DNA from: Candidatus Wildermuthbacteria bacterium
GTDB taxonomy: Bacteria; Patescibacteriota; Minisyncoccia; Minisyncoccales; UBA10102
Length of the DNA: 64,000 bases
Assembly (NCBI GenBank): GCA_016203455.1
Contig: JACQMR010000014.1
Coordinates: 1 to 64,000 of the forward strand
Direction of reading: 5' to 3'
The translations under genes were made by a program, and so were the position numbers. Positions 32,269-37,619 of the stretch are shown here, in pieces. Every line of letters begins with the position of its first letter. Position 1 is the stretch's first letter. The notes under the pieces are model-generated. The model was not told where the DNA came from, made no database searches, and was given only the letters and a program-made list of their open reading frames with translations.

Positions 32269-32505
32269 GTGGCGCGATTCATTAAAAAAGTGCAAAACCT
32301 TCCCGAGAGTTCCAGGCGGGTTATCCTGTGGAGCATTATGGGTGTTTTAGCGGCAGGGTTGGTGTTTTTTTGGGGCAGGGATGCTATACAAACAATACGG
32401 GGATTGGGCGCGTCAGCCGGTCCGGCCGATGGGAAAGAATCATTGGATCAAGTGATTCAAAAATTTCAACAAGAATTGGAATATGCCCGACAACAAGAAC
32501 AATAA
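32269..32505 (+). CDS. small single-pass membrane protein
   Basis: A GTG start at 32269 gives 78 residues: a basic N terminus ([14 protein letters not shown]), one membrane segment ([17 protein letters not shown]), then a soluble C-terminal helix ([20 protein letters not shown]). Its end overlaps the gyrA start by 23 nt, so translation of the two may be linked. Short proteins of this shape are common in CPR genomes without known function. A copy of an AT-rich repeat (ATTAGAAATTAGGAATTAG) precedes the start. Confidence 0.6.
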
Positions 32506-34993
32506 AAATAAAGATACGGCGGAAATCTCCACCATGGGCGAGGTGCGCCCGCGCGAGATTTCGGAAGAAATGCGTTCTTCGTATCTTGATTACGCGATGT
32601 CTGTTATTGTGGCGCGCGCTTTGCCGGATGTGCGAGACGGGTTAAAACCCGTGCACCGCAGGATTTTGTACGCCATGTTTGAAGACGGCCTCACGCACGG
32701 GGCAAAATACAGAAAGTCAGCCACGGTTATCGGATCCGTGCTTGGGCGCTATCATCCCCACGGGGATATTGCCGTATACGATGCCTTGGCTCGTTTGGCG
32801 CAGGATTTTTCAATGCGCTATACGCTTATTGACGGCCAGGGAAACTGGGGGTCCATAGACGGGGATTCTCCCGCCGCGTACAGATACACCGAGGCAAGGA
32901 TGTCTCGCATGGGCGAGTTTCTTTTGCAAGATATCGGGAAAAACACGGTGGATTTTCTGGACAACTACGACGGCACCAGAAAAGAACCCACGGTTTTGCC
33001 CGCGCCTGTCCCCCAGCTGTTGCTAAACGGAACTTTGGGCATTGCAGTGGGCATGGCAACAAACATTCCGCCCCACAATATTTCAGAACTGGTGGACGCT
33101 TTAGAGCATCTCATTAAAAATCCCAAAGCAACCACGGAGGATCTTTTTGAGTTTATCAAAGGGCCTGATTTTCCCACCGGCGGCATTATTTTTAACAGGA
33201 AAGAAATCATTGAGGCATATTCCCAGGGGAAAGGCCCCATTGTGATGCGAGGCAAGGCGGATGTCGCGGAGGACGAGAAAAAAACGCAGATTATCATAAC
33301 CGAGATTCCGTATCAGGTGACAAAATCCACCCTTGTGGAGCAGTTTGCCAATCTGGTGCAAGAGAAAAAAGTGGAAGGCATACGTGACATTAGAGACGAG
33401 TCGGATAAAGACGGCATGCGCATCGTGTTTGATTTGCAAAAAGACGCGTATCCCCAGAAGATTTTGAACCGTCTGTACAAATTTTCAGACCTGCAAAAGA
33501 CATTTCACTTGAATATGCTCGCTCTTGTTGACGGCATTCAGCCCAAGGTGCTGTCTTTGGTTGAGGTGCTTTCCGAGTTTATAAAGCACAGAAGGTCTGT
33601 GGTAACAAGGCGGGTTCAGTATGATTTGGATAGAGCAAAAGAACGAGAGCATATTTTGGAGGGGTTGCATAAGTGTCTTGCAAACATTGACAAGGTTATC
33701 AAGATTATTCGCGGAGCGAATGATCGGGATGACGCCAGAGTGAAATTAATGGCAGAATTTCGTTTGTCTGAAATTCAGGCAAATGCCATTTTGGATATGC
33801 GCCTGGCGCAACTGGCGCGTTTGGAACGCCTGAAAATTGAAGATGAATTGAAGGCGATTCGCGCCATGATTCAAGAACTTACGCTCATTTTGGGTTCTCC
33901 AAAAAAGATTGACGAAGCAATTATGCAAGGGTTCAAGGAGGCCAGGCAGTTGTTCGGGGATGAGAGAAAGACCAGGGTGCAGATACAAGGAGTGAGCGAG
34001 ATTGCCGAAGAAGACCTTATCCCGCAGGAGGAAACCGTTATCGTGTTGACGCAGGGCGGATATGTAAAGCGCATCAATCCGGCAACATACAAGCTCCAGA
34101 AGCGCGGCGGCAAAGGCATTGTGGGCATGAAAACCGTCGCGGAAGACATTGTGGAGCATTTTTTGTATTGCAATACGCACGATTCTTTGATGGTGTTTAC
34201 CGACTCTGGCAAGGTGTTTCAGATTCCCGCGTATGAGGTGCCGGAAGGCACCAGGGTTGCCAAGGGCAGAGGCCTCCTGAATTTTGTGGAATTAGCTCCT
34301 CAAGATAAGGTGCTTAATCTGTTTGCTTTGGGCAAAAAAGACGACGAGAGGGGAATACGGTATATGGTTATGGCGACAAAGAACGGGGTTGCCAAGAAAA
34401 CCCCGCTTGAGGATTTTAAAAATGTGAGAAAATCCGGCCTTATCGCCATTTCTTTAAAGAAAGGAGACGCCCTATGCCAGGTGCGAAAGAGTACCGGAGA
34501 GGATAATATAATCGTAACCACTCAAAAGGGGCAGTCCATCAGGTTTGAGGAGGCGGATGTGCGGCCCATGGGAAGAACGGCTTCCGGCATTAGGGCGATT
34601 CGTCTCAAAAAAGGAGACGAGGTGGTTGGCATGGATGTTATCGCGAAACAATCCAAGGTTCAGAATCCAAACGCCAAACAGGAAGCGGAGGCGGATTATC
34701 TTTTGGTGCTTTGCGAGAATGGGTACGGTAAAAGAACTCATCTAGATGAATACAGGACGCAGACAAGAGGGGGCAGCGGCATTAAAACCGTGCAGGTTAC
34801 TCCAAAAACCGGAGAGCTGGTATACGCCAAGGCGCTTTCTGGCGCCGAGGAAGACCTTATCGTTATTTCACAGCAGGGGCAGGTAATTCGCACGCCTATA
34901 GCGGATATTGCCAAAATAAGCAGATCCACCCAGGGAGTGAGAGTTATGAAGTTAGATGAAGGGGATAAAGTTGTATCCGCGGCGTGTTTGTAA
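32483..34993 (+). CDS. gyrA: DNA gyrase subunit A
   Basis: GyrA is the cleavage-religation subunit of gyrase, which introduces negative supercoils. The 836-residue protein contains the N-terminal core [20 protein letters not shown], the quinolone-resistance region ([15 protein letters not shown]), and the catalytic tyrosine in RYTEARMS (Tyr about 135). The C-terminal six-bladed wheel includes the GyrA box QKRGGKG (within [13 protein letters not shown]), which distinguishes gyrase from topoisomerase IV. The wheel contains a possible short repeat-derived insert ([13 protein letters not shown]). gyrB is not in the window. Length is normal. Confidence 0.97.
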
Positions 34994-35001
34994 TACAGTA
35001 T

Positions 35002-35475
35002 ATGAATATGCGCGAAAGCACGGCAAAGACGATGGTGGCGGGTGCGTTGGCGCTTTTATTCGCGCTGGCGTTCTTTTCTGTCGCGTCTGCCGAGAATCCG
35101 GACGGTTCATGCAGGCCATGTGAAACCGACGCGCAATGTCGTGATGGTTTCCAATGCGTAGGAGATACGGATATTACAGACGGCAAAGCCCAGGGGGTAT
35201 GCCAAAATCCAGACAGTATTGCGATATGCAATCCTTTGCGGGCCCCCGGTTTTACAGACATTATTAAAAATATCCTTACCATAATTTTTAACCTCGCATT
35301 GGTTATTACCCCCGTTATCATTGTTGTTGCCGGAGTCATGTTTCTTACCGCCGCCGGAGATCCGGCAAAAATCAGCAAGGCAAAGCAGATGTTGCTGTGG
35401 ACCGCCGTTGGACTTGTCGTCATTCTTTCTGCGCGCGGGGTTGCGCTGATTGTGCGCGCGATCATAGGATTTTGA
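35002..35475 (+). CDS. TrbC/VirB2-like pilin family protein, paralogue 1
   Basis: I start at ATG 35002 (157 residues). It has a signal peptide (TAKTMVAGALALLFALAFF, then SVASA), a Cys-rich head (six Cys in SCRPCETDAQCRDGFQC and a following CQN), and two C-terminal membrane helices (LTIIFNLALVITPVIIVVAG and MLLWTAVGLVVILSARG) joined by TAAGDPAKISKAKQM. That two-helix tail is the layout of TrbC/VirB2 conjugative pilins. It is the most divergent of five tandem copies. It may assemble into a surface fibre or secretion conduit. Confidence 0.75.
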   Translation: MNMRESTAKTMVAGALALLFALAFFSVASAENPDGSCRPCETDAQCRDGFQCVGDTDITDGKAQGVCQNPDSIAICNPLRAPGFTDIIKNILTIIFNLALVITPVIIVVAGVMFLTAAGDPAKISKAKQMLLWTAVGLVVILSARGVALIVRAIIGF

Positions 35476-35569
35476 CAAGGGCATTTGTATGCTATACTTA
35501 TGAAAGGTCGTATGTATGATAAGTTTTGAGCGCAGAGTACTACTTAATAAATATAAATCGTAATTCATA

Positions 35570-36037
35570 ATGAAAAAACTATTGGGAGTTTTGTTAGTAG
35601 CAGGTCTTTTTTCTGTAATGGGGTTTTCTAGTGTTTCCGCTACGATAGGTGTGGAATGTTCAAGCGATGCGGGATGTAATAATGGTGAGTTTTGCGATAC
35701 CGGTAGCACGCCAAATGTATGCGCGGCAGAAGTGTCGGGTACTCCCGGCAATCTTAATCAGCCCGCGGATTCTTTGCCGACAACCGGTATTCCCACAAGC
35801 GGTACTGACTTGATTGATCGCATTGCTCTTATCGGCAATTGGATATTCGCCATCTTTTTGGCAATTTCCGTTATTTACATTGTTCTTGCCGCGTTTGAGT
35901 TTGTTACGGGCGCCGGAGATCCGGCAAAGGTGTCCGGAGCCAGGCAAAAACTCATTTATGCCGCGGTTGGAATTGGCGTGGCTCTGCTTGCCGCCGGAAT
36001 TGATGACATTGTAAGAAGCATTGTTGTTGGTAGCTAG
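35570..36037 (+). CDS. TrbC/VirB2-like pilin family protein, paralogue 2
   Basis: The 155-residue protein has a signal peptide (KLLGVLLVAGLFSVMGF, SSVSA), a short Cys-rich head (CSSDAGCNNGEFC), a linker LPTTGIPTSGTDLIDRIAL, and two membrane helices ending in GIGVALLAAGIDDIVRS. The loop between helices, TGAGDPAKVSGARQKLIYA, is shared almost exactly with paralogues 3 and 4. The start ATG 35570 follows an AT-rich leader. Head and tail evolve differently: the tail is nearly identical in DNA among copies 2-4, the head is not. Confidence 0.75.
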   Translation: MKKLLGVLLVAGLFSVMGFSSVSATIGVECSSDAGCNNGEFCDTGSTPNVCAAEVSGTPGNLNQPADSLPTTGIPTSGTDLIDRIALIGNWIFAIFLAISVIYIVLAAFEFVTGAGDPAKVSGARQKLIYAAVGIGVALLAAGIDDIVRSIVVGS

Positions 36038-36073
36038 CGCACGCCCGCAAAGAGAATATACATTTATGCCTTC

Positions 36074-36454
36074 ATGAAGTTCTCTATTATTAACTTTGCT
36101 CTTGGTTTTCTTTTTGCGGGCGTATTTGCTCCTCTCTCTGTGTTTGGAGATACGCCGACAAACCTGCCTCCAACAAATTTTAGATTCCCCTCCATTAGCA
36201 AGCTTCCCGTAACGGGGAGCGATCTTCTTGACAGAATAGGCCTTATTGGCAACTGGATATTCGCCATCTTTTTGGCAATCTCCATCATTTACATTGTCCT
36301 TGCCGCGTTTGAGTTTGTTACGGGAGCCGGAGAGCCGGCAAAGGTTTCCGGCGCCAGAATGAAGCTCATCTATGCCGCGGTTGGAATTGGCGTAGCTCTG
36401 CTTGCCGCCGGAATTGATGACATTGTAAGAAGTATTGTCGTGAATACTCCTTAA
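36074..36454 (+). CDS. TrbC/VirB2-like pilin family protein, paralogue 3 (minimal head)
   Basis: The 126-residue copy has a signal peptide (FSIINFALGFLFAGVFAPLS) but no Cys-rich head: a short linker (LPPTNFRFPSISKLPVTG) leads directly to the two-helix tail with TGAGEPAKVSGARMKLIYA. It may represent the basic structural subunit. Its TAA shares one base with the next start (taATG), so copies 3 and 4 are probably translated together. Nucleotide identity with copies 2 and 4 in the tail is very high over about 230 nt. Confidence 0.75.
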   Translation: MKFSIINFALGFLFAGVFAPLSVFGDTPTNLPPTNFRFPSISKLPVTGSDLLDRIGLIGNWIFAIFLAISIIYIVLAAFEFVTGAGEPAKVSGARMKLIYAAVGIGVALLAAGIDDIVRSIVVNTP

Positions 36455-37143
36455 TGGCTGTTTGCATGGAGATGATCATACATATGGCATATCGTAAAAA
36501 GATAAACGCAGTCATTCTTGGTATTGGTTTGCTTATTTCTTTGGCTGGCATTCCATTTAGTGCATTCGGATTAGCGGAGACGACAAATGTGTTTTTTACG
36601 TCCTGCGAGGTTTCAGATACTACTGCTCTCCCCCAATGCACTGGGGGTCTGGTGTGTGAACCTTTTGAAGGAACATCTCGTTGCCTCTTGGTAATTGGGG
36701 CGTCTTGTGGTACTGATAAACCGGTATGTCAAAGTGGTTCTCGGTGCGTTGTTAAGGAAACTGGAGCTGATCTTGATGAATCCGGGGGGACTACGGCAGA
36801 AAGCGGTGATAATGAATGTCGTGTAGGGAGTTCTGCCGGCCCAGGTCCAGGAGGCGGTTTGCCAGGCGGCAATTTTAGATTGCCAAACGAAACCGAGATC
36901 CCCATCTCTGGCACGGCCCTTTTGGAAAAAGTGGGCGTGATTGGCAACTGGGTTTTCGCCATATTTCTTGCCATTTCTCTTATCTACATTATTCTTGCCG
37001 CGTTTGAGTTTGTTACGGGCGCAGGAGAACCCACCAAAGTTTCAGGAGCAAGGCAAAAACTCATTTATGCCGCGGTTGGAATTGGCGTGGCCCTGCTTGC
37101 CGCCGGAATTGATGACATTGTAAGAAGCATCGTTACCACATAA
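36454..37143 (+). CDS. TrbC/VirB2-like pilin family protein, paralogue 4 (long head)
   Basis: The longest copy (up to 229 residues). The first ATG 36454 overlaps the previous stop; ATG 36484 (MAYRKKINAV) is an alternative with a more usual signal peptide (VILGIGLLISLAGIPFSAFG). The head is large, with about nine Cys (CEVSDTTALPQC, then GLVCEPF, CLLVIGASCG, CQSGSRC) and a Gly/Pro-rich linker (AGPGPGGGLPGG). The two-helix tail is the shared module. Such heads could be exposed on a fibre or bind a partner cell. Confidence 0.75.
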   Translation: MAVCMEMIIHMAYRKKINAVILGIGLLISLAGIPFSAFGLAETTNVFFTSCEVSDTTALPQCTGGLVCEPFEGTSRCLLVIGASCGTDKPVCQSGSRCVVKETGADLDESGGTTAESGDNECRVGSSAGPGPGGGLPGGNFRLPNETEIPISGTALLEKVGVIGNWVFAIFLAISLIYIILAAFEFVTGAGEPTKVSGARQKLIYAAVGIGVALLAAGIDDIVRSIVTT

Positions 37144-37151
37144 AGAGCCGC

Positions 37152-37619
37152 ATGAAGATGAGAGGTTTATTTGCGATTGTCGCTTTGTTTGGGATATTGA
37201 TGGCGGCCGGGAGCGTTGGTTTGCCGCAATCTGTTTTTGCGGCTGGGCTAGTTACGGAAGGCGGTGAGTGCTCAAGGGCCGCGGGTGCGGTTGATGCGGA
37301 AAAGTGCGCGGAAGGTCTTGTATGCATTGGAGGCACCGATACCGCTCCAGGCGAATGTTTGCCCGAGTTGCCGGAGGGTCCACAAACCCCCGGGGAGGTG
37401 TTAGATACCATTGAGGTTATCGCGAACTGGGTGTTTGCAATTTTTCTTGCCGCATCGGTTATTTTTCTTGTATGGGGGGCGTTTGAATTTATGCTGGCGC
37501 AGGGAGATCCCGCAAAGATTTCCGCCGCCAAACAGCGGCTTCTATACGCGGTTGTGGGCATTGGACTTGCAATGCTCGCGAATGGCGTAGACGATATATT
37601 GAGAAGCATTCTTACCTAA
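37152..37619 (+). CDS. TrbC/VirB2-like pilin family protein, paralogue 5
   Basis: The 155-residue protein has a signal peptide (GLFAIVALFGILMAAGSVG), a Cys-rich head (GGECSRAAGAVDAEKCAEG, then LVCIGG and ECLPEL), and a divergent two-helix tail (VIANWVFAIFLAASVIFLVW; YAVVGIGLAMLANGVDDILR). The interhelix loop LAQGDPAKISAAKQRLL keeps the same pattern (GDPAK, S/A, AKQ). It starts 8 nt after copy 4, so copies 3-5 form a unit. The PAP2 gene follows 17 nt later. Confidence 0.75.
   Translation: MKMRGLFAIVALFGILMAAGSVGLPQSVFAAGLVTEGGECSRAAGAVDAEKCAEGLVCIGGTDTAPGECLPELPEGPQTPGEVLDTIEVIANWVFAIFLAASVIFLVWGAFEFMLAQGDPAKISAAKQRLLYAVVGIGLAMLANGVDDILRSILT

Follow-up and report, generated by a model that had tools for sequence, protein, structure and literature searches.

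The window, a 64,000-nt stretch of a Candidatus Wildermuthbacteria contig (family UBA10102, order Minisyncoccales), harbors an array of VirB2-like pilin genes linked to gyrA, and on balance these probably encode headed and headless subunits that co-assemble in a T4SS-built structure, with tails kept uniform by gene conversion. The array consists of five consecutive ORFs on the + strand at 35002-37619, starting 8 nt past the gyrA stop codon (Table 1). All of them match the T4SS_pilin family (PF18895), in agreement with their first-pass annotation as five tandem pilin-like genes with differing heads; a pilus function is inferred. The PF18895 gathering score (26.6 bits) is exceeded by p1, p2, p3 and p5, whereas p4 lies slightly under it (23.1 bits), despite a strong match of its tail to a profile trained on the family. 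A weak match to a mycoplasma ICE pilin-like family was also observed. The signal peptide and two-helix VirB2-type tail ascribed earlier to every copy are borne out by PF18895, by hydropathy and by a model of p3. A simple hydropathy scan finds an N-terminal hydrophobic, signal-like segment in all five proteins and only one hydrophobic segment in the tail of p5, and the AlphaFold2 model of p3 is a two-helix hairpin (residues 48-83 and 88-123, pLDDT mostly 80-93). Foldseek comparison of this model with the PDB gave nothing at E<=0.001 (best E 1.2), which is uninformative for a helical hairpin; a profile search of PDB sequences gave no matches, and a promoter and terminator scan across the array showed no excess over chance.

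Table 1. Coordinates of gyrA, the five array genes and their tails in the window
Feature	Position	Strand	Evidence
gyrA	32483..34993	+	ORF; conserved upstream neighbour of the array across family and order
p1, type A pilin	35002..35475	+	PF18895 E=2.5e-9; groups with gyrA-proximal copies elsewhere
p1 two-helix tail	35251..35469	+	profile match
p2, type B pilin, one 4-Cys head module	35570..36037	+	PF18895 E=2.2e-7
p2 tail, mosaic	35810..36025	+	profile match; alignment; mosaic test
p3, headless type B pilin, 0 Cys	36074..36454	+	PF18895 E=5.9e-7; AlphaFold2 hairpin
p3 tail	36224..36439	+	profile match
p4, type B pilin, 8-Cys head	36484..37143	+	PF18895 E=8.1e-5; family profile 4.6e-29
p4 tail	36922..37134	+	profile match
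p5, type B-like pilin, third subtype, 4-Cys head	37152..37619	+	PF18895 E=2.6e-11
p5 tail	37401..37613	+	profile match

The position of the array is shared well beyond this genome. PF18895 genes are present in all 25 genomes (18 genera) sampled from the family, and the loci examined there contain arrays of 2-6 copies after gyrA and before hsp20 and valS. The region 3' of gyrA was also analyzed for 31 further families of the order (57 genomes), and of the 56 genomes that could be evaluated 53 have a pilin there: a pilin tail occurs within 3.5 kb in 52 genomes and at 4.7 kb in G104, three genomes have none, and one region is incomplete. Outside the order, no pilin was found after gyrA in 27 loci (1.5-kb flank, with two flanks shorter), a difference giving a Fisher p of 8e-19 when genomes are counted as independent despite their common ancestry. 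The relatives retrieved through gyrA include Candidatus Paceibacterota (L060), also with pilins after gyrA. The best explanation is that the array is a syntenic, vertically inherited gyrA-linked locus typical of the order.

The array genes are of two types. Profiles trained on the gyrA-proximal (A) and distal (B) tails of one family were applied to the other families, where 48 of 53 arrays have an A-scoring first gene, and the later genes score as B (63), A (11) or undecided (9). A motif [NS]P[LIVF] ahead of helix 1 is carried by 43 of 59 A tails versus 2 of 66 B tails. In the window, p1 is of type A, with the motif "NPL", and p2-p5 are B-like. This scoring and the motif split indicate that the core of the array is an ordered A-B pair, and the fixed order suggests that the two are partner subunits. 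Since the same gene pair is found at gyrA across almost the whole order, the locus probably encodes a surface structure that is old and conserved and whose tips can change.

Some additional features are present at these and other loci. A class I methyltransferase of ~171 aa (PF13847) separates gyrA from the first pilin in 47 of the 57 regions (e.g. L220, L245), often ending 4-5 nt ahead of pilin A; it occurs neither in the arrays of the window's family nor in 401 kb of the window's genome. A 1155-aa ORF after gyrA in L145 (5412-8879) bears two tandem pilin tails, B-like then A-like, and the pilin tail after gyrA in G104 (L259) carries a head of ~1300 residues with 110 Cys. Finally, the extra pilin gene beside rpsO (S15) in the window's genome and two relatives (L011:268-693; L269:9162-9614; L270:9195-9599) is another conserved pilin locus.

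The numbers of cysteines in p1 to p5 are 6, 4, 0, 8 and 4. The heads had been described as ranging from none in copy 3 to about nine Cys in copy 4; the former holds, whereas nine Cys in p4 would require the further in-frame ATG upstream, at 36454, as start. The p1 head ends in a CNPL motif followed by the type A tail, the p2 head is a module of spacing C-x5-C-x5-C-x8-C, and the p4 head can be read as a pair of 4-Cys modules. The framework C-x5-11-C-x5-C-x4-14-C recurs in the window's family. A single universal 4-Cys module was considered and rejected because it holds for this family, whereas in other families of the order the Cys frameworks differ or the heads are large, being Cys-rich or of Ig/Fn3 type. 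Weak matches of the p2 head to Dickkopf_N (PF04706, E=0.0019, 18.9 vs 25 bits) and Myxo_Cys_RPT (TIGR04201, 16.9 vs 25 bits) fall below the curated cut-offs and are a resemblance only; the modules have in common a 4-Cys spacing C-x5-C-x5-C, from which the frameworks of the other families depart. The model of the p4 head has a pLDDT of about 40-58, and we make no claim on its fold. With head starts set by a simple signal-peptide rule, the Cys count is even in 65 of the 69 Cys-bearing heads shorter than 150 aa (family and order; binomial p = 1.6e-15), which points to exported domains that would be disulphide-bonded. A VKOR disulphide oxidase is encoded in the genome.

Heads are optional and lineage-specific: among the 53 arrays outside the family, 22 contain headless copies only, 20 both headed and headless ones, and 11 lack a headless copy. 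Such frequent headless copies would anchor nothing if the tail were a two-helix membrane anchor of separate, non-polymerising surface proteins (adhesins, receptors) for which no T4SS is needed. This alternative is possible, although rather unlikely. PF18895 tails also terminate very large Fn3/Ig-type proteins, as expected of a generic anchor, and a close-packed pilus hardly has room for heads that run from several hundred to 1300 residues; however, the fixed-order A/B pair suggests partners, and the homogenisation of the tails is better explained by shared packing. The anchor explanation also gains from the lack of linkage between the array and virB4, and from the array being kept in G005 and G079, two near-complete but fragmented drafts in which VirB4 was not detected. 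Both observations count against the T4SS-built pilus that we prefer.

The tail DNA of copies 2-4 had been called nearly identical over about 230 nt. The strong similarity is confirmed, but the wording overstates it: pairwise identity over 216 nt is 87% for p2/p3, 83% for p2/p4 and 81% for p3/p4 (86-93% at the protein level), with 92-97% in the last third (72 nt). A repeat finder reports a direct repeat of 238 nt shared by p2-p5, whose copies are 100/85/80/60% identical to that of p2. The similarity of the p2-p4 tails is far above chance and above the between-genome level, third-position identity exceeding 50% in just one of 600 between-genome tail pairs. In the tail tree, p1 belongs to another class than p2-p5, and p5, which has a 'GPQ' linker, groups with G002_3 and G004_3 as a separately conserved subtype. 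The clustering of p2, p3 and p4 in this tree (96/82) would also fit recent duplicates whose tails are conserved by constraint, with no gene conversion, but this is very improbable given the composition of p2, whose start and linker are closer to a copy from another genus than p4 is. The p2 linker and first ~20 tail codons resemble G004_2, from another genus, at 21 of 27 informative sites, and the remainder of the tail resembles p4 at 47 of 50, the last third being 97% identical; none of 2000 permutations was as extreme. Moreover, tracts of third-position identity at p<0.01 were detected in 9 of 209 within-array pairs versus one of 600 between-genome pairs. The strongest, in G006 (43 codons) and G002 (22 codons), have diverged sequence on both sides and likewise argue against simple duplication; the p2/p4 pair alone gives p = 0.058. 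Gene conversion between tails, proposed in the first-pass annotation, is supported by the p2 mosaic and by these synonymous-identity tracts in relatives. As to the diversifying selection on heads also proposed there, the heads diverge more than the tails in those ortholog pairs open to measurement; dN/dS was discarded as a test of positive selection because synonymous sites are saturated between genomes.

The window's genome is a 519-kb draft (83% complete) of the Patescibacteria with ten PF18895 matches, and its bacterium is probably host-dependent. A search for a VirB4-type ATPase and VirB6-like genes elsewhere in the genome had been proposed, and both were found on another contig (C3), in a T4SS-like cluster coding for an Ig/Fn3-type protein, a 1446-aa protein, PrgI, a TrsD-like protein, VirB4 and a pilin; the objection that such arrays might occur in genomes devoid of T4SS-like genes therefore does not apply here. 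Of the components of an MPF_FATA-type Patescibacteria T4SS (monoderm-type VirB4, PrgI/VirB3 and TrsD), VirB4 scores 371 bits against an NCBIfam cut-off of 325 (NF045971), PrgI (VirB3) exceeds its Pfam cut-off, and the TrsD-like protein is a weak match only (E=0.0086). The VirB6 Pfam model PF04610 has no match in the genome; the VirB6-like 1446-aa protein has a first hydrophobic segment and about six further ones, all within its first 330 residues. An absence of VirB4 according to Pfam PF03135 was misleading, as the protein was found with the P-loop_TraG and NCBIfam models. The gene directly upstream of the VirB6-like one (L011:7531-9876) codes for 781 aa with an Ig-type domain, a weak Fn3 match and a weak C-terminal T4SS_pilin match. 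In about nine genomes of the order, including G088, G126 and G059 (L301-L303), VirB4 is enlarged to ~1000-1330 aa, in one ORF, by a large insertion, which begins right after the Walker A GKS in the three examined (G088, G126 and G059) and contains Intein_splicing and LAGLIDADG_3 domains in G088; it is a predicted intein in the T4SS ATPase.

As the array lies on contig C9 and virB4 on C3, the array is not encoded in the T4SS operon. Where one contig carries both, tens of kb separate them (~70 kb in the single-contig G002). Encoding in the T4SS operon is not a defining requirement in the phylum, since in 813 of the 1948 assemblies that have both VirB4 and a pilin, no pilin lies near virB4 (PMC12102498). 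The absence of VirB4 in genus g2 was rejected as proof of independence, because the contig of G003 breaks off within the T4SS locus, at an Fn3-pilin-like gene. Nearly all genomes of the order have VirB4 (111 of 119), and a hairpin tail suits the lining of a VirB2-type channel, so that the array could provide alternative subunits lining or capping the channel of the virB4 machine, with heads as outer tips and no long pilus. We consider this improbable, given that virB4 has its own adjoining pilin and that the array tails are of different subtypes in the tail tree.

The likely picture is that of a putative pilus with decorated subunits. The array proteins would be exported via their signal peptides, each subunit forming a helical hairpin in the membrane, its short charged loop on the inner side and its N-terminal head on the outer side. 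Its core would be one type A and one type B subunit, B having been amplified in this lineage and its copies bearing up to two small disulphide-bonded modules, or none at all. With a tail in common, subunits with and without heads could pack into what is probably one filament or membrane assembly, which the VirB4/VirB3/VirB6-like machine from elsewhere in the genome would build. In such a co-assembly the heads would be displayed for contact with another cell, and gene conversion would keep the tail, as packing surface, uniform while heads change. Of the surface system for contact with a host or DNA suggested in the first-pass annotation, the host cell thus remains plausible, on indirect grounds, and no evidence was found for DNA. 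Little is known about how Patescibacteria recognize other cells and hold on to them, and a locus that nearly every genome of an order has next to a housekeeping gene, its anchor constant and its disulphide heads particular to the lineage, is a specific candidate for deciding which cell is bound. Synteny alone is enough to find the array, which allows its heads to be compared between strains whose hosts are known. A wider proposal, which we offer tentatively and consider doubtful, is that of an order-wide, gyrA-linked two-subunit (A+B) system distinct from the virB4-linked pilin, a modular surface filament with swappable heads, disulphide-bonded or of Ig/Fn3 type, and a conversion-uniform tail, whose heads set the host specificity of these epibionts.

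Trw of Bartonella is a Gram-negative system with arrays inside the T4SS operon. Its VirB2/VirB5 paralogue arrays are likewise tandem, sequence-variable pilin genes, their variation being thought to vary the host-binding surface, but added disulphide head modules, as in the present array, are not described in the available part of that source (PMC12857230). In Ca. Southlakia epibionticum, also a Patescibacteria genome with several VirB2-like pilins and a Gram-positive-type T4SS, the pilin series is essential (Wang et al. 2023, PMC10633639); it lies inside the T4SS cluster, whereas the present array is beside gyrA and far from virB4. Also close are the Patescibacteria VirB2 arrays catalogued by Quinonero-Coronel et al. 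2025 (PMC12102498), with 2-11 tandem PF18895/VirB2-like pilin genes per array in the same phylum, whose variation is proposed to aid adaptation to different hosts. Within-array identity there averages 25% (maximum 54%), in contrast to 86-93% for the p2-p4 tails. That study analyzes mainly the virB4 neighbourhood, and its main text mentions no gyr, fibronectin or disulphide, and cysteine just for a peptidase; gyrA is absent from the main texts of both Patescibacteria studies (supplements aside), and our literature searches found no report of a gyrA-linked pilin array. Pilin arrays in Patescibacteria are thus already known; what appears to be new relative to the literature found is the gyrA locus, the A/B pair, the logic of the Cys heads and the putative conversion, and the array hints that these minimal genomes have a second set of pilins, unlinked to virB4.
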